NCBI RefSeq assembly: GCF_041381155.1
Contig: NC_091135.1
Location: 7,493,620-7,557,619 of the forward strand
From: Argopecten irradians
Lineage: Eukaryota > Mollusca > Bivalvia > Pectinida > Pectinidae
DNA: 64,000 nt
Direction: 5' to 3'
The stretch's first letter is position 1. Every line of letters begins with the position of its first letter. Both the position numbers and the translations under genes were made by a program. Below the pieces are notes generated by a model that saw nothing but the letters and a program-made list of their open reading frames with translations, ran no database searches and was not told where the DNA came from. This document shows, piece after piece, positions 24,387 through 53,359 of this stretch.

Positions 24387-24516
24387 TGTAACAGGAGAGG
24401 AGAAAATGTAGCAGCCAGGCCGGGATTCGAACCCGGGATCCTCAGAACACTAGCCGAGTGCTCTACCGACTGAGCTACCTGGTCACCGATGATCGACCCA
24501 GTCCAATCCCGCTACA
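24387..24516 (-). repeat. TRIM 3' LTR (in element orientation)
   Basis: A 130-bp repeat with TGT...ACA ends, directly following the polypurine tract (its complement is at 24517-24533). Confidence 0.85.
24411..24484 (-). other. tRNA-like sequence inside TRIM LTR
   Basis: On the - strand it has D-arm and A box TAGCTCAGTCGG (24466-24477), a CTCGG/CTGAG anticodon stem, T-arm CCGGG/CCCGG and B box GGTTCGAATCC (24423-24433). By my folding the anticodon loop has eight bases (CTAGTGTT) and the acceptor stem a mismatch, so it is a tRNA relic used as a Pol III-type promoter unit, not a clear tRNA gene. Confidence 0.75.
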
Positions 24517-24609: not shown

Positions 24610-24739
24610 TGTAACAGTAGAGGAGAAAATGTAGCGGCCAGACCGGGATTCGAACCCGGGACCCTCAGAACACTAGCCGAGTGCTCTACCGACTGAGCTA
24701 CCTGGTCACCGATGATCGACCCAGTCCAATCCCGCTACA
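24610..24739 (-). repeat. TRIM 5' LTR (in element orientation)
   Basis: A 130-bp repeat next to the primer binding site, with the TGTT duplication at 24740-24743 outside it; the partner is at 24383-24386. Confidence 0.85.
24634..24707 (-). other. tRNA-like sequence inside the second TRIM LTR
   Basis: Same layout as the copy 223 bp to its left, with intact A and B boxes; the two lie in tandem on the - strand only because they belong to paired LTRs. Confidence 0.75.
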
Positions 24740-30429: not shown

Positions 30430-30745
30430 TGGTTACGCGTAAAGTTCAATTAATATCCAGGGTCATTTAAGGATGGCCTCCCTTGTATGTAACATATTGA
30501 TTGCATATAGATGTCTGTATGTTTTGGGAGGCTGGGGTGTCCCTTTTTAATAGTGAGACACCTGCGCTTTTTAAGTTATATCTCACCAATCTGCATACCG
30601 CCAAAGATACCAGCAACACAGAATGCTTAGTCACAGTTTACTGAAAGCAGACAAATTATTCGTCGTTTATTCAGTATTAAATTTAATAAGAAAACATGTA
30701 GACGCCTTTTACTATCATGCAACGGGGCAGCGGGTAAAGGCCAAA
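30430..30745 (-). mobile_element. SINE-like family A, gapped
   Basis: The 3' half runs to 30621. The 5' end resumes at about 30700 (CCTTTTACTATCATGCAACG, then GGGGCAGCGGGTAAAGG). Confidence 0.5.
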
Positions 30746-37024: not shown

Positions 37025-37035
37025 ATGATGACTGA
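36913..37035 (+). CDS. Upstream ORF overlapping the kinase-fusion start (40 codons)
   Basis: An ATG at 36913 opens a 40-codon frame that ends at TGA 37033-37035, eleven bases past the main ATG and in another frame. If the leader is transcribed from upstream of 36913, ribosomes reading it would pass the main start, so it could lower translation. It is probably not a functional peptide. Confidence 0.3.
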   Translation: MLHRLVWCDTPCCPSARVAMVRTIGMLTDGPVAITTMNDD

Positions 37036-37078
37036 AATACCGGATTTAATCACCGTCGCCAAAAATGGAAATTTAAAG
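37025..37078 (+). CDS. Kinase-fusion gene, coding exon 1 (start codon)
   Basis: This exon encodes residues 1-18, the first helix of the first ankyrin repeat. Two ATGs follow one another and a TGA in the same frame sits directly before them. The second ATG has A at -3 and may be the better start. The donor is AAG|GTAAAA, phase 0. The exon is too short to be found as an ORF; it was recognised because its reading (ITVAKNGNLK) joins exon 2 (EVENLLRQ) into one ankyrin helix pair. Confidence 0.8.
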
Positions 37079-40000
37079 GTAAAATTTTGTAAAATGGAAC
37101 TTTTTATTTAATTTTGTTTTCGGGAATTTGTTAGTATATACTAACGGCTTATTGCAAATACAGCTTTACCCTGTTTGTCAGTGAGGCTTAGGAACATACT
37201 ATAATCGTCATTTAGTGTTGAAATAAGTTTCCACTAAATACTTACCCAATAAGACGTTAGAGACAACCACCAACAAACCAACTTTTCTGAAGAGTCTTAG
37301 GACTTGATTTAAAGCCACACTCTACGTAACTATCAACAAAATTTCAAGTTAAATTCGACTCCGATAGTGTTAGTATTTGTAGATGTAGTTGAAATTAACT
37401 GTATCAAAGGATATTTATAACGTTTTTAATAACTTTAATATAGCAGTTGTTGAAAGTCGATACTTGAAAACATGCCTTCATTTTTAACTGGTCGCCATAG
37501 TTACGATTATTGCCGAACGGAAGTCGGAAAGTTCATGACCTGTTTTTGGAAGAGATCGGACAGACGTTACGTAGATACGGTAGTCACATGACCTTCTCGG
37601 CATCGACGTTACAATGTCGGCTAACTTCGGCTTGTTTGACTAAGTGGGACCCACCTAGCGATGTTTAATATTTATTTGATTTTTATCAAAATATTCCGAA
37701 TCATAATCGCTCAATTTGACTTAGATTTAGTCCTGTCTCTGCATGATTTACAACAAGATTTTTTTCAGCATTCTTATAAATCATGAAAAAATAAGAAAGA
37801 TACGGATATTGGGCCTTTAAGGTGCCGTTTATAATACGAATCTTTTTTCACTCTTCTTGGAATTTACTGCAATCTCCAAGTGATCAATATTTTTGTCTTC
37901 ATTAGGAGGTAGAGAACTTGTTGAGACAAAATTATTCAGTACATATTCGAGGCAAAGACGACGAGACCGCCCTCTATTGGAGCTCATGTCGTGGTCACGT
38001 GCAGATCTGTAAGGCGCTCCTTGACAGCGGAAGTGACGTCAATGCACGTGTATCGTGGGGATCCACAGCATTGCATGCAGCATCAGACAGGGGCCATCTA
38101 CACTGTGTAGATCTTCTTATCAAACGGTAAGCGTGGTTTTGTGCGGTAATACCCGTTTGTGCAAAATCGAACATTTGTAGATATTCATCATAGTGAATCC
38201 AAACCAATCTGAAAGAAGGAATAAATAAAGATAAATTCCACATTTTCGTTGATACATAGAAAACATGTTTGTGCAATGGATGTAGCAATAGTGAGATTTT
38301 TTCAGTTCGCAATAGGTAATATCATATTTTCATCATTAAAGATGCTCCACCGCTGACAAATGGTATTTATTCTCTATCAAAAACAGGAGCAGACGATTTA
38401 GTATTTTTCTTCTGTTACAATAATTACTTTCCATCATTACTACCATTGAAAAGTATGAGCTTCTAATTTTACTTCAAGACAAAAATATTGAAAATAATTA
38501 ATTCCATCCCGAAAAAAATCCGTGGCACTCTGTCTTATATGAAATTAAGTATTGATTGCGCATGCACCAAAGGTAAAACAAATTATTTCATATTATTTTT
38601 TTGTGTTAATTAGACACATATTTTCACGATTAAACACAAATTATTGTTAAATTCATGATCATCGTTTATGCTCTGTCGGCGGTGGAGCATCTTTAATAAA
38701 AGCCCGATATTTTTGACAGTGGTGCAAATGTCAACATCCAGAACAAACGAGGCGACACCGCACTCCATGTGGCAGCATATCGAGGACATATCGATATCGT
38801 CAGGCTTCTAGTTCGTGCTAACCCAGACCTCCTAATCAAAAACGATAAAGGGCGAACAGCGGCAGACGAAGCTGAAGGCAACAGTCATAAAAAGACGTCA
38901 GCATTCCTGTACCAGCATATGATCCGTAAGTTATCGTTAACGAAATTCACAAATGAAAGGGGTCGCACATTATTATGAGCAGTCGCCTTTTACGATCATG
39001 CAATAGAAGCAGCAGACAAAGTTCTAAAATATGTGAGGATAGGGAAACTATTACCATACAGGTCAACGATGCAAGAAATGTCCTTATATGATTCAACCTT
39101 ACCTACAGACGTTTTACATATTATCCTGTCCGTCGCAAAGTATATTTGGTACGATATGTTGTTCTAGTAGTTGTAGAGACAATGGTAGGAAAATGGGGAG
39201 AAACATCCTTCTTGATGGTGTGTAGAGGACATCGAGGGTTAAGGCAAAATGACATGCTTGCTGTGGTTTTAAAGTTTTTTGTTCAGAAGGGGAAATTACT
39301 TTTTTAAATATTGAAATTACATTTATAAGTCAAATGCTTGTTATATATCGTCCATTTATTCATTTGATATATTGCAGTGTACATGTAGATTTATTATTTC
39401 TCCTTCTTCAGCATTTAACCGGAACCCATTCTGTGACCAAAGCCAAGCGTTACACCCATCCGATAACCTGCACACTTTACCGCAGAGGCTAGATCAAAGT
39501 CAGCTGGGGCGACAAGACGTAACTAATGGCCAGGGACAATGGTTTGCCAGCCTCGGTAGCATTTCTACTCATAACCAATATCAACAGATCGGTCAAACAC
39601 GATACTCGCTAGTTTATCAGGATAGCGATGACGTATCTTGTGCTTCTTTTCCCGGAGCTTCCAAAGAGAAGGGGAAGGCTTCGGACAGTAACTTTCTCCG
39701 CTATCGGGATGACCTGACTGGTTTTCGGCGGAGAACTGAGCCTGAAGAGAGCATGGATGACGGCGACATTCAAAATGTCGCTAACAAAGAGAATGATAGA
39801 ACTAAGCTGAGTAGACGGGAATCTATAAATGGTCGCCACAAAGACAATGGTTCTGAAGTCACAATGCGTCAAAAGGGACCGAAGATAGCACGTGAGGGAA
39901 GTGATAGGAGTCATAGCAATGATATCACATCGAATATTTTGTCAGAGTTTCAACCTTGCAATCCACCAATAATTTTTGATGATAATTCAACAGATGGTGG

Positions 40001-43000
40001 TTTACCTTTGCTAGGATCCTGCGAAGATGTGCGCATGCCAAATCAGTGCGTAGCCGCTTCCGATAGACCTTCGCGGATTTCTGTTGGTTGTGTAAGGGAA
40101 GTGGCAGGCAATATACACAATGAATCTATAGAGAATTTTTCAGAATCGTTGCAAATGGAATTATTCAAAAAACAGGAACTTGTAGAAAATTTGCAAAAGG
40201 AAAATGCAAATTTGAAAAATCAGCTTACAACGATGAAAAAACAGTTTTCATGTTTATGCCAAAAACTGAAACAGGAAAACAGTCAGTTAAAAGCCTCCCT
40301 AGAGGAAAGGACTAGAAAAACTGACACATCAATTCAAACTACCTCAAAAAGTTCTCTCAGCGGGTTTATTAATTTTCTGGATAACTTTTCTCTGCGTGGC
40401 GGATTATATACCAAAAGTGACCAAATGTTTCTAATTCTAAGAGAAAGTTTACATTCTCATTGGTTGAAATATGTTCCTCCTAGTCAGCTAGATGTGCCAA
40501 ATAAGGAGTGGTTACTAGGAAAGGACTTTACTATGGTTAGTGATCAGCAACATCTCAAGCCGACGATACAAGGCCACCTCGACGGACAAAGCACGTTTGT
40601 GTTTCAAATAAAACACAAAGGCTACTTACGGATACTTAAGGTAATACCTACTAATTATGGACCTTTATTGCTATGGGGGTAGCCCGAGGTTATTGTTCCA
40701 TATTCCACTAGGGTGGTGTTACCCGATTCTCCGTGATATTGCCAGTTCATAAAACAATAAAATAAATGTCTAAGCGTGCTTGTTCATTGTCAGTCATACA
40801 TATAACCTGACGGCGTTATTTAGTTGCTGCAGACAATATAGAAATATAGGAAATATATATCCTAACTCCTGAACATATAGAGCAAACTATCCAGAGCTAC
40901 TGAAATGATAGAGTTCGATAATCTAAACATAGGTATTTCTTTGGTTACAGATGACGATAAATGCTAGTACTACTGAGACTATCAGCCGGGGACAAGGTTA
41001 CAATATGGACAATTCCTCGACCGAGAACATCGGCTTGGAGCACCAGCTTCCAATGACATGGAATGAACACGTGAACATCATCAAAGCCAGACACACTTTT
41101 ACTGGAACAACTTCCGGTTTCCAGAAATTTCTCAATAATATTTATCCAAAATTCAATATACCAGTTGATATGACCTTTCGAACTAGGTGCATTGTATTTG
41201 ACCATTTCCCAGAATCCTTGAAATCCTTCGGTGTCCGGTTACGGTCTAACTCATTGGAACCACCGTTTGGCTTCGACATGATGTTTGTTCATCAGCTGCT
41301 GTACCAGATTCTCTCTGCGGTTTACTACATCAAGAAATATGGCGTTGTCCATCGTGATATCAAGGCAGAAAATGTTTTCCTGGATAATTGCTTACGACCG
41401 GTGCTTTCAAATTTTGGAATGGCACGGAGAATTGAAGGTGCAAATTCTTGCATGTATTTCACAAATAACATACAAGTGTTCGCCGGCAATATGCATGCCT
41501 GGGCACCGGAACTTGCCAAATGTCATCATATTGGTCCTTCACGAAATATCAATGAAAGGGTAAGTCTTTATAAAGTTATACAAAGAGTATACATATGTTA
41601 TGATCACCACGTAAGTGGTATGTTTAAAACAAAATACTGAACAGACTTTTTTCAGAACAACGATCCCTTATCATTACATAATCATTTACCATACTGCAAC
41701 ATGTAAAATTAGTTAAATAGATGTACATTATCCCGCAAGCTTGCGGCTGAAATTTTCTAAATTGTCAATATTGCAGATATACATCTAGCAACTGCTTTGA
41801 AATCGTGTAATCGTGGAATGGGGGATCTGAAGTAGTAATCGACCCTCCATGTGAATGTTTGTCTCGAAAAGTACCTACACGCGAAATATGAATATTTACA
41901 GTATAGATAATTTAATTTGACAATAATCTCCGTTCCAGGTGTCGCTAGAGGAAATCTACAGCAAGTCTGATGCTTATGCAGTGAGCAGGATGTTCTATAG
42001 TCTCTTGCAACCAGAGGACAGCACATTTCCACTATCGTCACGCGATAGGCCTCAATATGAGAATTCGGAAATACCCGAGCTCCCCTCTTTGTACCCTGCC
42101 GGTCTAAGATTCGTACTTAAGAACCAAGTGTTCAGTAATCCTCTCGACAGGTTGACTGACCGGAAGGCTTTGCTTTAGTGAGTATGAGAAGAGATGACAG
42201 TTGCACACTGCCATTGTGAACATTTTGATATATGATAAAACTTTAATCCAAAAAGATCATTGAAAATAAATAAGGATCAAAATTAAATTAAAGTGCATTG
42301 ATGATATAATTATCTATTCCGGAGACGTAATCGTTTAATATCCGCCAGCAGCAATATTAAACGTAAGACAATTGTTTATCAATGCTGTTCATTGTTTTCT
42401 AGCGTAGGGATGCTAATGTTTCCTCCAAGCGCTGGGGAGTTAACCATGGAAACACAAACGACGCGCTACTGCCAAGCTCGCATGTTAAAGCTTCTTTCAT
42501 TGGAGAACACTGCAAGGTATGTAGACCATCTTCAAATCCTACAAAAATTATGTTGTACATAAAAGTGGCATACATATGAGAACATAAAAGTGACATACAT
42601 ATAAGATTGTCGTTGAAGGACCTTAGCTGTTAACAGGACGTCAAAATCGGAAGCAATTTAACACCTGGTGGTGCCATTTTGGTGTTGTTTTTTTCAAGAT
42701 ACAATTCAACTGCATTAACACTAGCATAACTATTGTATGGAATTTCTTATATTAACTAATATAAGATTGAACGACCTAAATTCTTTAATCACTGATAAGA
42801 AGAGACAATCACGAATATACCGCAATCTTCAAAAACACATGCACATTTACAAATGTACTACACAAACTACATTTCCTACATGGCCCATCATATAGGACGT
42901 TAGAATTGGTGTTTTTATTGCATGATTGTACAAGGCGATTACAATTAGGCTAATATCTTCTATTCTTTCTTACTTATTTTACCTGAAGTTGGGCGGAAAG

Positions 43001-46000
43001 CTTTGAGTTTCCCTGGCCAAAACATATAAACCAGTCTTTAAAAATGGTAGATTTTGCGCCTGCGTAATGTTCAGCATAAAGTGAGTGGGACGACTAGTTT
43101 GCCAGTTGTCAGTATACCGAGTGTGACCGAGTAGGGTGTGCTTATTGAATTTTGCGATATGCTTACGTTGGATAGTAATATAAAAAGGACAAAACATTCT
43201 ACTATTGCTAAGATACAACACACGAATATATTGCAGACTTCCACTACATACAGACATTTACACACAACACATCGAATTCTGATAGGCCGTCCTTAAATGA
43301 CATTAGCTGTTAATAGGAACTTAAGTCAACCAACCAACTTTATAGACAGGCGAGGCAGTTTTTCAATGATCGTAGTTCTTCATAATGATCAACCAAACAA
43401 CCCACTAATTTTTTGGCAAAATCATTGACATTCAGCACCGTTTCAACAAAATTGCATGATCGTAAAGGCGACTAAATTTAGGATCTTATCTGTTCTATTA
43501 TTCCTAACTGACTTTATCTTTCCTAATGCCTCCCTTAGCACCGCCTCACTTCTGGCCTTGAGTTAAGTGTTAGCCCCTGTGGGGAAGACTCTGGGTTCTG
43601 TCCCCTGGCCGAGACACACCAAAGTCTATAAAAGTGGTAGTTTCTGCTCCTGTTTTGCGCTCAGCATACAGGGAGTGGGGCGACTGGTTCGCCCGTTGTC
43701 AGTATAATGTGACCGGGTGGGGTGTGTTGCTTGATGTCTTCGGTGGCATGCTTCAGTGATATTGCACTATAAAAAGGGCAACAGTTCCATTATACAAGAA
43801 GACATAACACGAACATGCCGCAGTCTCCTAAAACACGCACCTCGCACTTCACAAACGCTACACACTGCATACATGGGAGGCCGTCCTTACATGACCCTGG
43901 CTGTTAATAGGACGTTAAAATAATCAAACAAACAAACAAACTTAATTTCATAAAGAAGGGAATCGGCTACGATATGGCCTACACTTGCCGCATGTATCAA
44001 CAAAACGACCTCATCGGTCAGACTGAGGGTGGAGTTGATATGTGTCAATCTTGCTGATCATTCTTAGTTCATATATGACTTCTAATGTTAAATATTCGTC
44101 AGCCTCTCTTGTTCACTCTGACATTATATTATTAATTAAAGTTGAAGAGAAATCTAGAAAACGTGTCAAAGGATCGCACAATATAAGAATAATATTATCA
44201 AACATCTTGAAGTTGTAACTGAACCATACAGTTGTGTTCTACCTTTTGAAGTGATACTTAAAAGGAGAAACATGATGATGAAAGCAATCTTCAACTAAAA
44301 CTTCATCTGAGCTGTTCCAAGAACCAAAGCCATAATCATTATGAATACAGTAAAGTAATCATAGCTCATTTGAGTTTTCTCCACAACATTGAATACCTTT
44401 AGAGACAACCATCAACATACACTACTAAACTGCGCTTACAGTATTAAAGCAGTTAAATGACATTTCAAAAATCTATAATCATCTGTTTTTAATCGAAGCA
44501 AAGCTTGATGTAAATGCCGTTTTATTTATGATCGGAGATAAACCTTACTTTACAGCGTCAACACACGAACATATAAGCAATGTGTACATGTCCCCCAATG
44601 AATTTCATGTGAACGGAATTGTAAAATTGTTTAAATGAAAATAAATTACTCCACGGTTATGCGTACCGTTAAAGTGGAAGTGTTTGCGAATGAATCCGCA
44701 CGCGAAATATTACGTGAATATGTTGAAATGTATAATTGTGTTTATGAGGATAATCCAACAAACTTCGTAATCACAATACTTGAAAATTAAAGTATATACG
44801 ACGAAGGACAAAAAGTTCCGATGACTGCCCCCTTCTGAAATACACATTCAAAGAACCATATTACCTGTCTGATATGCATTACAAGTTCCGGGTAATAACT
44901 GATCGATGATCTTAATTAAGTTTATTCAATATAACAAAATGGAAACCTTTTTGCCTATATAAGTGTCAGATATTTTCATTGAATTAACAATATGATAGAT
45001 TACCTTTCTCTTAGACCACAAACAGTAAGGAATGGCCCATGTAGTTATTAAATATTTCTAAATGCATCACTTTTCACTTCCCTTACTTTCTTGATTTGCG
45101 ACATATTTTCATCTAAAGGTCCTATCTTATTTGTCTCTGACAATATCCTCCGTAGAAATATGAATAAGGCAAAGCCTAACAATTATCATCATTAGACATA
45201 CCACAAAATTTTATGTGCGACGTTAATAGGACTTAGATGTCATTTTTAAATGACATAAGCTTTTGTGCATTGTGCAAAATAAATTTTGAATACATTTATG
45301 ATATATTTTTTATCATTCTTCAAATCGACGGGTCGAACTCGACACTTTTATGAATTAAATTGCACTTTCTCGACAAATAGTATTTGTTACGTACGTTTTA
45401 TTTTGAGTTGTCGAATACCTGTAAGTGAAAGTTAGTTGCTTTCATACGTTTGTCTGGTGGCTTAGTTACATTAATCTTGTGAAAATGCCACTAAAAATAA
45501 ACCATCGAAATTATGGGAAATAGTTCATAACCACAAATTCAAAAATTCAACATCTATCAAAATGTGTACGCCTTATCTTTTTATTCATTAAAACTCTTCT
45601 ATCTTTTCATCATATTAAAATACCAGTGTCAGTGAATCCATTTGTAGTTTTGTCTAGCAGCGGTGACAAAATGTCAGCTATGTCTCCTTATACGTCAATC
45701 ATTGCTCCGAACCAGGAAGTCTCATTTATAGACCCTGCACTTGTCGTAATGGGCTAAAAACTTCACATAGAATACATGTCATGGTACGGTAATCGTAATA
45801 GGTTTAACAACACCGTATAGACACCCTTACACACTGTAAATGATTAAAACTAATAACACAACACATGCTGCATGTATTGTCAGTCCAGTAAATGATTAGA
45901 ACCAACACATGGGATGATTTGATATGTATAGCGAAATAAAAACACTGACTTTTTCGGAAGGCCATTCCGAGGAAGACAGTTGTAAAAGTATAAAGACTTT

Positions 46001-48842
46001 GCAGTAAAAGGCTATATTTTAGTATTACTAATTTAACTTAACGAACTCATTTTTTGGTTAGGAAACAAAATTGTATTAGTAAAAAAACACTTAAATAGCG
46101 AATCGCCAATTGGCGTAGTTCTAACTAAATATGGTCGGCGAGAATGCCAACATTGTCAGAATATGACAGAAATTCCATTCCTTTGTTTGCTAACTTTATA
46201 AAATAACGAGAAACGAAATAAAAACCCATATAAAGGCATACTTGTAACAAAGCCGTAAAATGCTTATTGACAACACATGCTAACAGTGTACCTATTCGTA
46301 ATTACTCAACATCATCTGCAACGCGTTTAACTTACTATCAGTAGCGATAACAAACCTTTTATAACCACGTATGTTGCAAGGCTAGGCGTATTATGCTTGT
46401 TGGCGCTCTTCACAAGCACGCCGTTTAAATACCGAATGATCATGCTATTTTGTAGCAAATGTGTTTCATGCAGTATAGATCGTCCAATAGGCCTGTTGAT
46501 TATCTAACACGTATACCTTCCTTAGAGTACAAGCGTCCCTGGGATAGAGGTAGTATACGATTGGCTGAATCTAACCAACCAGATGATGTGATTGATGTGA
46601 TATTGCCGCCGACAATCCGCTTGATCTATCTGATAAAGCATTTCCATTTGTGTTTTTCTAGTGATTCATTTCCTTAAAAAACATTCATTATTCAAATATT
46701 CGAGAATAGGATGATTTTGAATTTCCTTCCGTATTCTATTTATCTAGGTTTTTTATCAGACTGTTTTTATTGTCTGGTAAAACCACTCACAGTAATAATT
46801 CATATGTCCCGCTATGTAAGCATTAAAGAGATTGTCACTTCCGCTATAGTAGCAAACATTCCAAATACATCTTATTTTTTACAATTTATTATCCCAACCA
46901 GTAGCTTTCATAATACTGAGAGCATGGATAATTGATCCGGAGAGATAGATTTTATCTTAGCTGTTTTTAAACTAATTTTTTAATATAATGACAATAGTTT
47001 TTCGCCTATAGTATATTGAAAATTTCCGTGACCCTTTTATAAATATTAATATCCTTTGATATCACTCTGAAAAAGGCATGACTTTATGTCTTCAGTATAT
47101 AGTGTCCTAAATAATAAAGTAACCTTTCATATCCTCTTTATTGACTTTGTAAGGATTATTCTTGGTTCTGTCATCTGGTCAGGCAAATCGATTGTAATTT
47201 ATAAATAAGAGGTCGTGTGGTCATTAGATTATCTATCTTGCATCGTTTTTATGGAAATGTTTAAACTTTTAATCTGTAGTTATTAACATTTGATTAATTA
47301 CAGTGTCTAAATTGATTTTAAACGTACAAAGCATCTCAACGATCCCTTTGTTTTTTTAACTTTCACTATGTATTTACTTTTCTCAAAATTTCAATATGTG
47401 GCTAAGCGAATTACAAACCACTCGAATATTAGCATTTATATGTATATTCACACCGTCAATAATAACATCATCAATTTTCCACATAGGTCCAATTACAACA
47501 TTTATACCTAACGATCGATATCCTTCCTAAACACCGCTCCATTACATTTATCATCTATCATATCATGTGTATTACTTTACGCTTTTCGTGTCTAGTACAA
47601 ATCTACAATATTATGTACATTGAATCTCTGACCGTATCATTTTTGCCGCATAATCGACATGAATGTTCATTAAACAGTTAAAATAGGAGTTATGATAAAT
47701 TGATTTTTCTATGTAATATTTAATAAAAAAAATATCAGTAAACAAAAGTCAACAAAACCAGAATTTTACAACAATTTATATAGAATACTGACAAATCAGA
47801 AAACGCCCCTCCAGATTACTTATCAGTATATTAAACTCAGACTAGCAAATATTAAAGCAGTAAGTACATTATGTAGGTGCACAGCCCATTTGATCATTTT
47901 CTTTAAAATCCAAGATGGCTGCATTGTAGCCATTTTGAATACAGTTTGCCCCAAAAGTTACACATCAGCTTGAGACGACATGGGAAATTATTATATCAAT
48001 TGTAATAACACTACTCCACTTCCTGCCAAACAAAATTTATATTTATGTCATTATTGAATCCAATATGACAGCTGAGTTGCCATTTAAAATCCTATTTGCC
48101 CAAAACGTTACATGGTAGATTCAGATAACACAAGGAGTCATCTTGTCAATTTTCAGAACAATAAGCCTCTTCCTTCCATGCAAAACCTCATTTATTGCCA
48201 TTGTTGAAATCAAAGATGGCCGCCGCCCAGCCATTTTGAATCTGATTAGCCCCAAACGTTCCACAGCAGATCTAGGTGACGTGGGGTAGCAGCCTACCAA
48301 ATTTGAAAGCAGTAGTCTACTTCCTCCTATCATGATATACAAAAACAAAAAATACAGACAGACGGATAGCCTTATTAATACAGGGCACCCGCATATCGAT
48401 TATCACTGTTTATCTCGTGGTCTATAGAATATCGGGTTAGACACCTGTGGAAAAAAAACCCGGATTTGATCTATATTTGAACATTGCATGGAAATTCTTA
48501 TCGACAGAGTCGTATTTGACCTATACTTTAATGGTGGATGGAAGAAGCTTACTCCTCCGGATCATTTTGTTTAGTCCACTTTCATTCATTGGTTGATACT
48601 TTTTATAAACATTTTGCTTTTAGTGTGCATCCGTACTGTGCACTTGGCCACTCAAAATAATACTTATACTTTTTCGCTATTGTAGGCGAACTGATGTGCA
48701 TTCAGGTCCAAGGCTAACGATGATGGAAAGTGTTGACAGACTGAGGCCGGAACTAGAAGCCGATTTCCTGCACAAAATTACACCAGAGGAATTTTGGGAA
48801 ATCTACCAGGATTTAAAACAACGCGACTTCCTGCCACCATGA
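37025..48842 (+). CDS. Ankyrin repeat / coiled-coil / PINK1-like kinase fusion protein (8 coding exons)
   Basis: The spliced CDS joins 37025-37078, 37906-38126, 38720-38925, 39412-40640, 40951-41559, 41939-42177, 42403-42516 and 48686-48842, giving 942 residues. Every junction is GT-AG and in phase. Residues 3-145 form ankyrin repeats (TALHAASDRGH, TALHVAAYRGH), 162-400 are polar and low in order, 406-463 form a coiled coil, and about 540-850 are a kinase domain. K570 (RILK) sits where the VAIK lysine is expected; HRDIKAEN is at 704-711, SNFG at 723-726, WAPEL at 754-758 and IYSKSDAYAV in the C-lobe. The last two match PINK1 best, as does the tail after the kinase. The DFG aspartate is Asn, so catalysis is doubtful. 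There is no mitochondrial presequence or membrane helix, unlike true PINK1. An in-frame TGA directly precedes the ATG, fixing the start to M1 or M2. The gene structure is secure; the PINK1 relation is from memory of the family. Confidence 0.85.
37906..38126 (+). CDS. Kinase-fusion gene, coding exon 2 (ankyrin repeats)
   Basis: Residues 19-91 and two bases of codon 92. It encodes the end of repeat 1, all of repeat 2 (TALYWSSCRGHVQICKALLD) and most of repeat 3 (TALHAASDRGHLHCVDLLIK). The acceptor is CATTAG|GAG and the donor ACG|GTAAGC. Confidence 0.88.
38340..38692 (+). mobile_element. TTAA-flanked MITE in intron 2 of the kinase gene
   Basis: Terminal inverted repeats AGATGCTCCACCGCTGAC and GTCGGCGGTGGAGCATCT, with TTAA on both sides (38336-38339 and 38693-38696). 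The interior is AT-rich with no ORF. A TTAA target suggests a piggyBac-like mobiliser, although the ends do not start CCC. Confidence 0.78.
38720..38925 (+). CDS. Kinase-fusion gene, coding exon 3 (ankyrin repeats)
   Basis: Completes residue 92 and encodes residues 93-160: the end of repeat 3, repeat 4 (GDTALHVAAYRGHIDIVRLL) and a degenerate repeat 5 (GRTAADEAEGNS). The acceptor is TTGACAG|TGG and the donor ATCC|GTAAGT. A MITE fills most of the intron before it and ends about 25 bp from the acceptor. Confidence 0.88.
38982..39032 (-). mobile_element. SINE-like family A, 5'-end fragment in an intron
   Basis: CAGTCGCCTTTTACGATCAT and GCAATAGAAGCAGCAGAC match the first 60 bases of the family; it lies in intron 3 of the kinase gene. 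Confidence 0.55.
39412..40640 (+). CDS. Kinase-fusion gene, coding exon 4 (linker, coiled coil, kinase N-lobe start)
   Basis: Completes residue 161 and encodes residues 162-570. Two acceptors are possible; only CTTCTTCAG|CA at 39412 fits the phase of exon 3, and it has the better pyrimidine tract. The first 240 residues are polar and rich in Ser, Asp, Arg and Asn, with a KEN motif and an RRES basophilic-kinase-like site. The coiled coil at 406-463 has heptad Leu positions (ELVENLQKENANLKNQL). The exon ends in the kinase N-lobe with a loose Gly loop (GHLDGQSTFVF) and the presumed ATP lysine as its last codon. Confidence 0.88.
40951..41559 (+). CDS. Kinase-fusion gene, coding exon 5 (kinase core)
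   Basis: Residues 571-773. It begins with ATG, but this is an internal Met because exon 4 ends in phase 0. It holds the hinge region (CIVFDHFPESL), the helix before the catalytic loop (LLYQILSAVYYIKKYGVV), the catalytic loop HRDIKAEN with D706 and N711, the altered metal-binding motif SNFG and the APE motif (AGNMHAWAPEL). The donor is AGG|GTAAGT; readings past 41559 are intron. Confidence 0.9.
41939..42177 (+). CDS. Kinase-fusion gene, coding exon 6 (kinase C-lobe)
   Basis: Residues 774-852 plus two bases of codon 853. IYSKSDAYAVSRMFYSLL is the kinase F-helix with its conserved Asp and is close to the PINK1 motif YSKSDAWAVGA. The segment EIPELPSLYPAGLRFVLK follows, again as in PINK1. The donor is TTA|GTGAGT, so the apparent stop TAG at the edge is not read. 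Confidence 0.88.
42403..42516 (+). CDS. Kinase-fusion gene, coding exon 7
   Basis: Completes Y853 and encodes 854-890 plus two bases of codon 891. It covers the end of the kinase domain and the start of a helical tail (RYCQARMLKLLSLENTA). The acceptor is TTTTCTAG|CG and the donor CAAG|GTATGT. At 114 bases it is short and was found by splice-phase continuity. Confidence 0.8.
42612..42642 (+). mobile_element. SINE-like family A, 3' stub
   Basis: GAAGGACCTTAGCTGTTAAC and AGGACGTC only. Confidence 0.4.
42808..42912 (+). mobile_element. SINE-like family A, 3' end
   Basis: CACGAATATACCGCAATCTT to CATATAGGACGTTAGAA. Confidence 0.5.
42919..43335 (+). mobile_element. SINE-like family A, full-length but old
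   Basis: Starts TTGCATGATTGTACAAGGCG and ends at TTAGCTGTTAATAGG; all landmarks are present with many changes. Three copies lie head to tail here with the 42.8 and 43.5 kb ones. Confidence 0.65.
43451..43941 (+). mobile_element. SINE-like family A, best full-length copy
   Basis: About 490 bp from GCATGATCGTAAA at the 5' end to GGCTGTTAATAGGACGTTAA and an AAAC-repeat tail. Landmarks in order are CTCTGGGTTCTGTCCCCTGG, TCTATAAAAGTGGTAGTTTC, CAGTATAATGTGACCGGG, GGTGTCTTCGG or its variant, ACTATAAAAAGGGCAACAG, and GGAGGCCGTCCTTACATGAC. There is no ORF. The tail shared with family B and the frequent 5' truncations point to mobilisation by a LINE. It lies in the last intron of the kinase gene. Confidence 0.8.
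47882..48370. repeat. Dispersed element with internal tandem units (about 150 bp x 3)
   Basis: CAAGATGGCTGC-type segments followed by GCCATTTTGAAT recur at about 47911, 48060 and 48211. It ends in ACAGACAGACGGATAG, like the end of the 7.6 kb element. It lies in the last intron of the kinase gene, 0.3 kb before the final exon. Confidence 0.6.
48686..48842 (+). CDS. Kinase-fusion gene, last coding exon
   Basis: Completes R891 and encodes 892-942 and TGA. The product is a charged helical tail (TMMESVDRLRPELEADFLHK, then EEFWEIYQDLKQRDFLPP), matching the position of PINK1's C-terminal helices. The acceptor is GCTATTGTAG|GCG. It follows a 6.2-kb intron. Its one-base start phase exactly fits exon 7. 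Confidence 0.82.
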
Positions 48843-51735: not shown

Positions 51736-53167
51736 TCGCTTTACATCTTTTCCACCCCATGTGGAGTAGTTATCAGATACGAATTTGTATTATACAATCA
51801 ATTGTATTATATCAATCAATGATACCAAAACAAAAAAAAACATATTTTGATGACATGACCATAAAATAAAAAAAAATGAAGTTGTTCAGTATTGCGTTTC
51901 TATAGTTCGCTTCATGCTCTCGAAGTATCCGATAAATACCGCCAATATTTTGTTAAATACCAAAATATTTTTCTATTAGGACAATAACGAGCAAAATAAA
52001 TCTCAAAGACAGTGTTTTAAAATACATGTATCTTTACCAATGTTTTCTTCAAAATAACGAAACGAATAAAAGATATATTTATATATTCATAAAGTTGATA
52101 AATGATCGGCAGGGTTATGATATACTCTTACGTCTAAAATTGCTGGAAGAAAACGTTAATTCCACTTCACCGTAGCACAGTGGTTAATGTAAAATGTGGT
52201 CAAATCTTTGATGTTGAATGTTCTAAATAATCAGAATGATGACGTTATATTATTTCTAAGCTTTACAACACCACACAATCGATAACATCTAGACAAAACT
52301 CTACTACACATTCATTTTGTAATAATATCTGTATAACGTATCTCATGGTTATTTGACACAAACGACACTTTATTAGTTTTGTAAAGACGTTTATATACAG
52401 CATATCTAATGAAAACAATACTAGTTATCAAAAAGTTAAAAGAATTATAATTTGTAATCTATTGATTGTGCTTAATAATCGTTTAAAACAGACGAGTCTT
52501 TTTTCATGGAGAAGTGATAATATACTCGGAAACCAGACATACGGTCAGTATTCAAAAGGTGCCCCACGTGACCCCTTGAACCCGGAAGGTACAGGATCAT
52601 CTCTATATAACAACTTTAGACGGAAATCTTCCACTTTAAGGGCAAACTATCGCTATCGATTTGGCCTATTGCTGTTGTTCATGACAGGTTAATGTGCCTC
52701 GTGGGCTATTCGTTGACTATCCCTAGCGAGTACTCAATAAAACAAATAAATAAAACTCATTGCAATGTGACAAAACCCGAAAGAAGAAAATTTTGAGAAC
52801 TAGATATATCTTGCCAAATAGTAAAGTTATCAACACAATGGGGCCTAATGAGGAACAACCGCTGTTATATGAATATAGCCCAAGGATCATTCATTTAGTT
52901 CTAGCGTGTTAATTGGGGGACGCCTCCTAGCGGTGACATCGATGTATCACTGGAGAAAAATTACATTTGTCTAAATAAAACAGGACGCTTGTTACGGAAC
53001 AGTTTGTAATTAATTACATTACGCAAATTGTTGCTTAGGAATTTTACCGCCAACACAAATTGTTATTCTAGTATTTGAGATGGAGTGAAATTTTCACGCA
53101 TGTAAATAGTTAAACAAAGAGCAACAGTGCTCCATACGAAGAGTGATAGTGCGTTTGTCGCATGGCG

Positions 53168-53359
53168 CATTGTCGGTCCGCTCTTGCCCCATTGTCGGTC
53201 TGTTCTTAGGGCGGTGACAGTCTGTTTTTGGTGCAGTGTCGGTCTGTTCTTGGTGCATTGTCGGTCTGTTCTTGATGCGGTGTCGGTCTGTTCTTGGTGC
53301 ATTGTCGGCCTGTTCTTGGTGCATTGTCGGTTTGTTCTTGGCTCATTGGCGGTCTTTCC
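53168..53359. repeat. 22-bp minisatellite, 8.7 units
   Basis: Unit CATTGTCGGTCTGTTCTTGG plus TG, with scattered changes. Because 22 is not a multiple of three, all frames stay open for a while and give false ORFs on both strands. Confidence 0.9.

Follow-up and report, generated by a model that had tools for sequence, protein, structure and literature searches.

A single-copy gene for a predicted ankyrin-repeat, coiled-coil protein with a putative pseudokinase domain of the PINK1-PEAK branch

The locus and the predicted protein

The window analyzed here, a stretch of 64,000 nucleotides (C2:7493620-7557619) in an 846-Mb animal assembly of 1508 contigs, contains a gene whose predicted product combines ankyrin repeats, a coiled coil and a kinase-like domain. 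The gene model, derived from reading of the DNA and from stop-to-stop frames, comprises eight exons at 37025-48842 (+), which together encode 942 amino acid residues without an internal stop, the stop codon ending at 48842; all seven introns are GT..AG and all are in phase (Table 1). The ankyrin repeats occupy residues 8-143 approximately, the coiled coil about 410-458 and the kinase-like domain about 545-850. Pfam analysis of the joined protein reveals Ank_2 (3.4e-27), three PF00023 stretches and Pkinase (2e-12; 47.5 bits against a cut-off of 31.7). The best coiled-coil window is 421-448, where the heptad score, a simple home-made count, was matched by none of 500 shuffles of the segment 396-480. 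An earlier note on this DNA had described eight exons joining in phase, the presence of these three elements in one protein, and the kinase motifs AGNMHAWAPEL and YSKSDAYAV; the splice phases, the Pfam matches and the shuffles agree with it, and the motifs are located at residues 748-758 and 780-788, respectively.

No membrane-like segment was seen, the best 19-residue hydropathy value being about 1.16-1.17 and falling inside the kinase domain. By plain residue count the first 40 residues contain seven acidic and five basic residues, and they run into the ankyrin repeats. Since the sequence has no strongly hydrophobic segment, the protein is probably cytosolic.

Table 1. Features of the gene and its surroundings (positions in the window)
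Feature	Position (strand)	Content	Phase at end	Donor	Codon-usage scan or score
Exon 1	37025..37078 (+)	Start codon and first ankyrin helix (MMTEIPDLITVAKNGNLK)	0	GTAAAA	
Exon 2	37906..38126 (+)	Ankyrin repeats	2	GTAAGC	Listed
Exon 3	38720..38925 (+)	Ankyrin repeat GDTALHVAAYRGHIDIVRLL	1	GTAAGT	Rank 2
Exon 4	39412..40640 (+)	Linker, coiled coil, start of kinase N-lobe to beta-3 lysine (LRILK, K570)			Rank 1
Intron 4	40641..40950 (+)	GT..AG, immediately 3′ of the beta-3 lysine codon			
Exon 5	40951..41559 (+)	Remaining N-lobe, catalytic loop HRDIKAEN, LSNFG at the DFG place, AGNMHAWAPEL			
N-F-G codons	41410..41418 (+)	AAT TTT GGA at the DFG motif position; asparagine N724 replaces aspartate			
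Exon 6	41939..42177 (+)	Alpha-F to alpha-I, YSKSDAYAV, EIPELPSLYPAGL	2		Rank 3
Exon 7	42403..42516 (+)	End of C-lobe, start of C-terminal extension	2		
Exon 8	48686..48842 (+)	Final 52 residues and stop codon; 6.2 kb from exon 7			In-frame score 0.206
AATAAA	48936..48941 (+)	Possible poly(A) signal, 94 bases past the stop codon (direct reading)			

Codon usage was trained on 20 open frames at host kinase loci, with the host PINK1 as control (score 0.168). A scan of the whole window places three of the exons at its head (Table 1), while exons 2 and 8 stand lower in the list, among repeats and poly-G. Exon 4 is a frame of 409 open codons, for which the chance expectation is about 9e-12. Its first 113-114 codons precede the first ATG (chance about 8e-4) and exhibit a codon score of 0.121, where the maximum among 49 background frames of at least 80 codons is 0.102. 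Because this part is open and has coding-type codon usage, a coding exon should precede exon 4. It is the main sequence evidence for an upstream exon spliced to exon 4; that this exon would be the ankyrin exon 3 is a matter of fit, the phase, the donor GTAAGT and the acceptor CTCCTTCTTCAG all being suitable. On these grounds we infer that the ankyrin exons are spliced to exon 4. Exon 4 contains both the coiled coil and the first part of the kinase, which are therefore linked in any case.

Copy number, the canonical PINK1 and family placement

Searching the genome with the kinase C-lobe returned the gene's own locus only, followed by generic kinases from an expect value (E) of 9e-5 (59 of 59 candidates scored); the coiled coil plus N-lobe found that same locus only (nine of nine candidates scored). 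With the ankyrin part, for which 150 of 463 candidates were scored, the matches after the locus itself were other ankyrin proteins, beginning at 38% identity. The kinase, coiled-coil and N-lobe exons are single-copy in the assembly.

A separate, canonical PINK1 is found elsewhere in the same genome (C1:18410184-18417956), in keeping with the suggestion of the earlier note that the ankyrin gene is a relative distinct from PINK1. A Tribolium PINK1 query finds it at 4e-13 (best exon), and its joined exons align with Tribolium PINK1 at 349 bits, HRD and DFG being retained; the model excludes the first exons, which would carry the presequence. That the ankyrin gene is a recent duplicate of this PINK1 was rejected: the intron positions of the two genes do not coincide, and in a tree without PEAK sequences a sister relation to the host PINK1 gives a p value in the approximately unbiased test (p-AU) of 0.017, which makes the gene unlike a recent PINK1 copy. 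The intron after the beta-3 lysine codon is absent from the modelled canonical PINK1. Each gene is interrupted by a phase-0 intron between APE and alpha-F, but the two introns lie some residues apart and are not claimed as shared.

Between its glycine loop and its beta-3 lysine, the host PINK1 carries an exon rich in Asp/Glu, about 95 residues long (L028:2551-2835, C1:18410550-18410834). An acidic loop is insertion 1 in Tribolium PINK1 (PMC6039469), and the insertion of the host protein was removed before the trees were built. The kinase exons of the host PINK1 are preceded by a tandem array whose period is about 157 bases (L028:14-1618, C1:18408013-18409617), most units of which keep a 54-codon open frame on the + strand.

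Comparison of the kinase with all PDB sequences by phmmer gave 741 matches, the first five of which are PINK1 chains (6e-10 to 4e-9), with other kinases following from 1e-6. The piece from alpha-F to the C-terminus gave 12 matches at E ≤ 10, namely nine to insect PINK1 (0.01-0.08), one to SgK223, also known as PRAG1 (0.95), and two to non-kinases; in absolute terms these values are weak, and what counts is their specificity. PEAK members are among the nearest non-PINK1 neighbours of Tribolium PINK1 in the PDB, after CaMK1, and when PRAG1 is the query PINK1 comes next after PEAK. Trees built from three PINK1s and 20-21 host kinases, without PEAK, join the kinase to PINK1 with supports of 99/96 (25 rows) and 98/96 (24 rows, L040 left out); it falls outside the clade formed by the true PINK1s, and its terminal branch is about 2.5 long. 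Placement with PINK1 alone (99/96) was withdrawn after PEAK sequences had been added.

The trees containing PEAK cover the C-lobe only (163 and 162 columns) and add two PRAG1 rows, one PEAK1 row and human PINK1. They omit six of the 21 host kinases: L036, L046 and L047, which possess no HRD-like motif by pattern, and L040, L045 and L048, which were named by hand beforehand. The smaller tree, based upon a second alignment, further drops L049, L041 and L033 for their long branches. The gene, PINK1 and PEAK group together against 15 host kinases in the 23-row tree (98/98) and against 12 in the 20-row tree (100/98). Within this group the gene stands beside PEAK at 89/70 and 88/76, both below the starred level of support; the alternative with PINK1 is 0.86 log-likelihood (lnL) units worse in the 23-row tree (p-AU 0.267) and costs up to 1.0 lnL in the 20-row tree (p-AU 0.245). 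In the 20-row alignment the gene has 26 C-lobe residues in common with both families, a further 25 with PINK1 alone and 15 with PEAK alone; this count is tilted toward PINK1, which is represented by four rows, PEAK being represented by three, two of which are near copies. From these comparisons the kinase domain appears to belong to the PINK1-PEAK branch, which we regard as settled as far as the present data go, and it seems assignable to neither PINK1 nor PEAK, its sister within the branch being undecided.

The description of the kinase as PINK1-like in the earlier note thus stands in part. PINK1 comes first in the PDB and the domain lies near PINK1 rather than the ordinary kinases, but with PEAK added it is PINK1 and PEAK together that accompany it. 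A position outside the PINK1 clade, which that note had named as telling against its proposal, was half found: in the trees without PEAK the kinase is beside and not inside the true PINK1s, and its position is undecided once PEAK is included. The motifs are present as described, whereas the loss of the DFG aspartate had been overlooked.

Catalytic residues, proposed function and alternatives

The metal-binding aspartate of the DFG motif is replaced by asparagine (LSNFG, residues 722-726). Kept are the beta-3 lysine K570, HRD at 704-706, the catalytic-loop asparagine N711 and the alpha-F aspartate D784, while E579 is only tentatively aligned with the alpha-C glutamate. The glycine loop is degenerate, reading GQSTFVF versus GCNAAVY, GTNGVVY and GCNAVVY in the host, Tribolium and Pediculus PINK1s, respectively. 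The corresponding aspartate of Tribolium PINK1, D359, binds both Mg ions, and activity is abolished by the substitution D359A (PMC6039469); SgK223 has SNF at the DFG place and a degraded pocket for adenosine triphosphate (PMC5660093). We infer that the domain is a pseudokinase which has lost catalysis.

The explanation that we favor, with a probability of roughly 0.6, is that this single-copy gene encodes a soluble 942-residue scaffold. Its N-terminal ankyrin repeats would dock a partner, its central coiled coil would pair two copies, and its C-terminal pseudokinase, a highly diverged member of the PINK1-PEAK branch, would work via binding rather than phosphorylation. Dimerization and the scaffold role are suggested by analogy with the PEAK pseudokinases, which are dimers, and with ILK, which has ankyrin repeats and a pseudokinase. 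In SgK223 dimerization adjoins the kinase domain (PMC5660093), and in ILK the ankyrin repeats bind PINCH and the pseudokinase binds parvin (PMC8799556). The cytosolic, scaffold-bound PINK1 relative envisaged in the earlier note survives in modified form: the lack of a membrane-like segment and the separate PINK1 accord with it, but a pseudokinase scaffold of the PINK1-PEAK branch appears a better description than a cytosolic PINK1 enzyme.

Several results weigh against this scaffold reading. The end branch amounts to 2.1-2.5 changes per site, and so long a branch exposes the placement to long-branch effects, an artefact of fast change being possible. PINK1 profiles, built from three to four sequences, did not single out the protein: with the whole profile the gene is second of 22 targets, behind the host kinase L044, and with the region profiles it is fifth, lower than the six shown, sixth (through an unrelated stretch) and fifth of 22. 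As a family test these profiles proved non-discriminating against the host's ordinary kinases. A single-sequence profile comparison gives two PINK1s first and the third PINK1 fifth. By profile neither the N-lobe nor insertions 2/3 have significant similarity to PINK1; a profile-profile alignment spans the insertion 2/3 region (277 columns, probability 98). Nor was the proposed resemblance of the C-terminal tail to PINK1 substantiated, since shuffles are significant for human PINK1 (5/500) and non-significant for the host (136/500), Tribolium (209/500) and Pediculus (376/500) proteins. As regards the gene model itself, exons 1, 5 and 7 are not in the list of the window codon-usage scan; the in-frame codon score is highest of the three + frames in six of eight exons (not 1 and 7) and highest of all six frames in five (not 1, 5 and 7). 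Structure prediction of exon 5 alone gave a mean predicted local distance difference test (pLDDT) score of 32.6. Finally, the retention of the beta-3 lysine, HRD and the catalytic-loop asparagine leaves weak or unusual activity possible.

Such activity is the substance of one alternative, namely that NFG tolerates catalysis and that the protein, in the manner of a cytosolic PINK1 relative, would phosphorylate a substrate in the cytosol. Some proteins classed as pseudokinases are active (PMC9403797), and K570, HRD, N711 and D784 are in place, but with the DFG aspartate lost, the glycine loop degenerate and the D359A precedent from Tribolium (PMC6039469) we consider this improbable. It is likewise improbable that two genes have been fused in the model, with exons 1-3 encoding an ankyrin protein and exons 4-8 a coiled-coil/kinase protein, or that exon 8 is foreign. 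The frame of exon 3 runs into the intron to a stop (open to 38978), an ATG occurs 114 codons into exon 4, exon 8 lies 6.2 kb away, and the C-terminal extension has no significant similarity to three of the four PINK1s; against a division, the codon usage of the pre-ATG part of exon 4 exceeds that of all 49 background frames and calls for an upstream exon, the phases and splice sites are compatible, and the coiled coil shares one exon with the first kinase strands.

Two further alternatives concern the family. An invertebrate counterpart of PEAK1/PRAG1/PEAK3, in which the ankyrin repeats and coiled coil replace the long N-termini and a dimer scaffolds signalling complexes, is favoured by SNF standing for DFG in the gene as in SgK223 and PEAK1 (LSNFG compared with RLIISNFLKAK in PRAG1 and RLIVSNFSQAK in PEAK1), the resemblance of SLYPAGL to SLYSPGL of PRAG1, and the position beside PEAK in the best C-lobe trees. 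In its favour too, a PEAK1 piece matched nothing in the genome. Among the 22 places that a PRAG1 C-lobe piece matched at E ≤ 10, the six that scored best are host kinases lying outside the PINK1-PEAK branch in the 23-row tree, and the ankyrin gene appears at E 0.017; each search was without a positive control of its own. The place with the highest identity among the 22 (54%, C1:9818129) was considered as a PEAK gene of the host and rejected, as in our own reading it is CDK11-like. We judge this counterpart unlikely, for the supports of 89/70 and 88/76 are below the starred level, a PINK1 placement costs only 0.86-1.0 lnL, and the alpha-F-to-end piece scores 18.9 bits with PINK1 in the PDB against 12.5 with SgK223. 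The converse, a soluble and catalytically weak PINK1 paralogue whose kinase domain pairs or competes with PINK1 and whose ankyrin repeats bring a bound cargo or regulator into that pathway, strikes us as unlikely as well. It draws on the trees without PEAK (99/96 and 98/96), on the 25 residues shared with PINK1 only against 15 with PEAK only, where the row numbers favour PINK1, and on the autophosphorylation of PINK1 via a kinase-domain dimer (PMC8828467). That mode of activation makes pairing of the gene product with PINK1 conceivable, an idea so far without support. The best trees with PEAK rows, which put the gene beside PEAK, speak against it, as do a tyrosine at the place of the autophosphorylation serine (Tribolium Ser205), in an unsure part of the alignment, and the fact that no mitochondrial feature was found in hydropathy or in the composition of the first 40 residues.

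More tentatively, and on balance doubtful, the gene may represent a third lineage within the PINK1-PEAK branch, one that bears ankyrin repeats: a soluble pseudokinase mixing PINK1-like and PEAK-like traits and perhaps still pairing with PINK1.

Relation to known proteins and significance

By comparison with the insect and human PINK1 structures and the host PINK1, which are the nearest PDB kinases by sequence where structures exist, the gene shares the beta-3 lysine, HRD and the motifs YSK-S/A-D-x-x-AV, GN....APE and E-I/L-P-x-LP...P. It differs from PINK1 in an identity of 24-31% at best, in NFG and the degenerate glycine loop, and in carrying ankyrin repeats and a coiled coil with no membrane segment seen. 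With SgK223/PRAG1 and SgK269/PEAK1 it has in common SNF at the DFG position and the branch shared with PINK1, and HRD is common to the gene and SgK223, PEAK1 having HCD; unlike them it carries, where they have their own N-terminal regions, ankyrin repeats together with a separate coiled coil, and it has the PINK1-like YSKSDAYAV. PINK1 and PEAK structures share the N-helix and the C-terminal region (PMC8828467). The order of N-terminal ankyrin repeats and C-terminal pseudokinase is that of ILK, from which the gene differs in keeping HRD and in having a coiled coil and a long linker; in the PDB ranking, ILK is absent among the best 60 of the 741 matches of the kinase.

Other features were recorded in the window and the assembly. 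Intron 7 contains two short open frames overlapping by ATGA (44429-44790), the second of which is single-copy in the genome and gives a weak Ras-association match (E 0.0069, below the Pfam cut-off) that was set aside as it has no PDB support. On the - strand, 223 bases apart, lie two sequences that resemble tRNAs and for which an odd anticodon of four bases was called (24411-24484 and 24634-24707); they are perhaps copies of a tRNA-derived short interspersed nuclear element (SINE). A 22-base tandem repeat arranged in 66-base higher units, with about 8.8 copies of the short unit, occupies 53163-53355. Ten of the 12 other open frames of at least 120 codons had no Pfam match at E ≤ 0.01, those at 30575 (+) and 53440 (-) being left out. 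Viral contigs gave one weak kinase-like match (31%).

Among the literature matches listed, judged by title or the start of the abstract, neither an ankyrin-PINK1 nor an ankyrin-PEAK protein was found described, and the earlier note, which knew of no described ankyrin-PINK1 fusion, is so far in agreement. In the excerpted main text of an oyster kinome study (PMC4883820) there is no match for PINK, NKF or ankyrin, and a pseudokinase review (PMC7586955) has none for PINK1, ankyrin, ILK or PEAK. The architecture of ankyrin repeats with a PINK1/PEAK domain may well be present in sequence databases.

In most discussions PINK1 appears as a lone mitochondrial kinase, and the PEAK proteins as scaffolds. 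If the scaffold reading is true, a member of the branch that bears ankyrin repeats, has neither the catalytic aspartate nor a membrane segment and exists beside a canonical PINK1 would separate the scaffold role of the fold from its enzyme function and would offer a way to date the parting of the PINK1 and PEAK lines. Were the gene to represent a third lineage, it would show how a mitochondrial ubiquitin kinase and the cytosolic scaffold pseudokinases are related.

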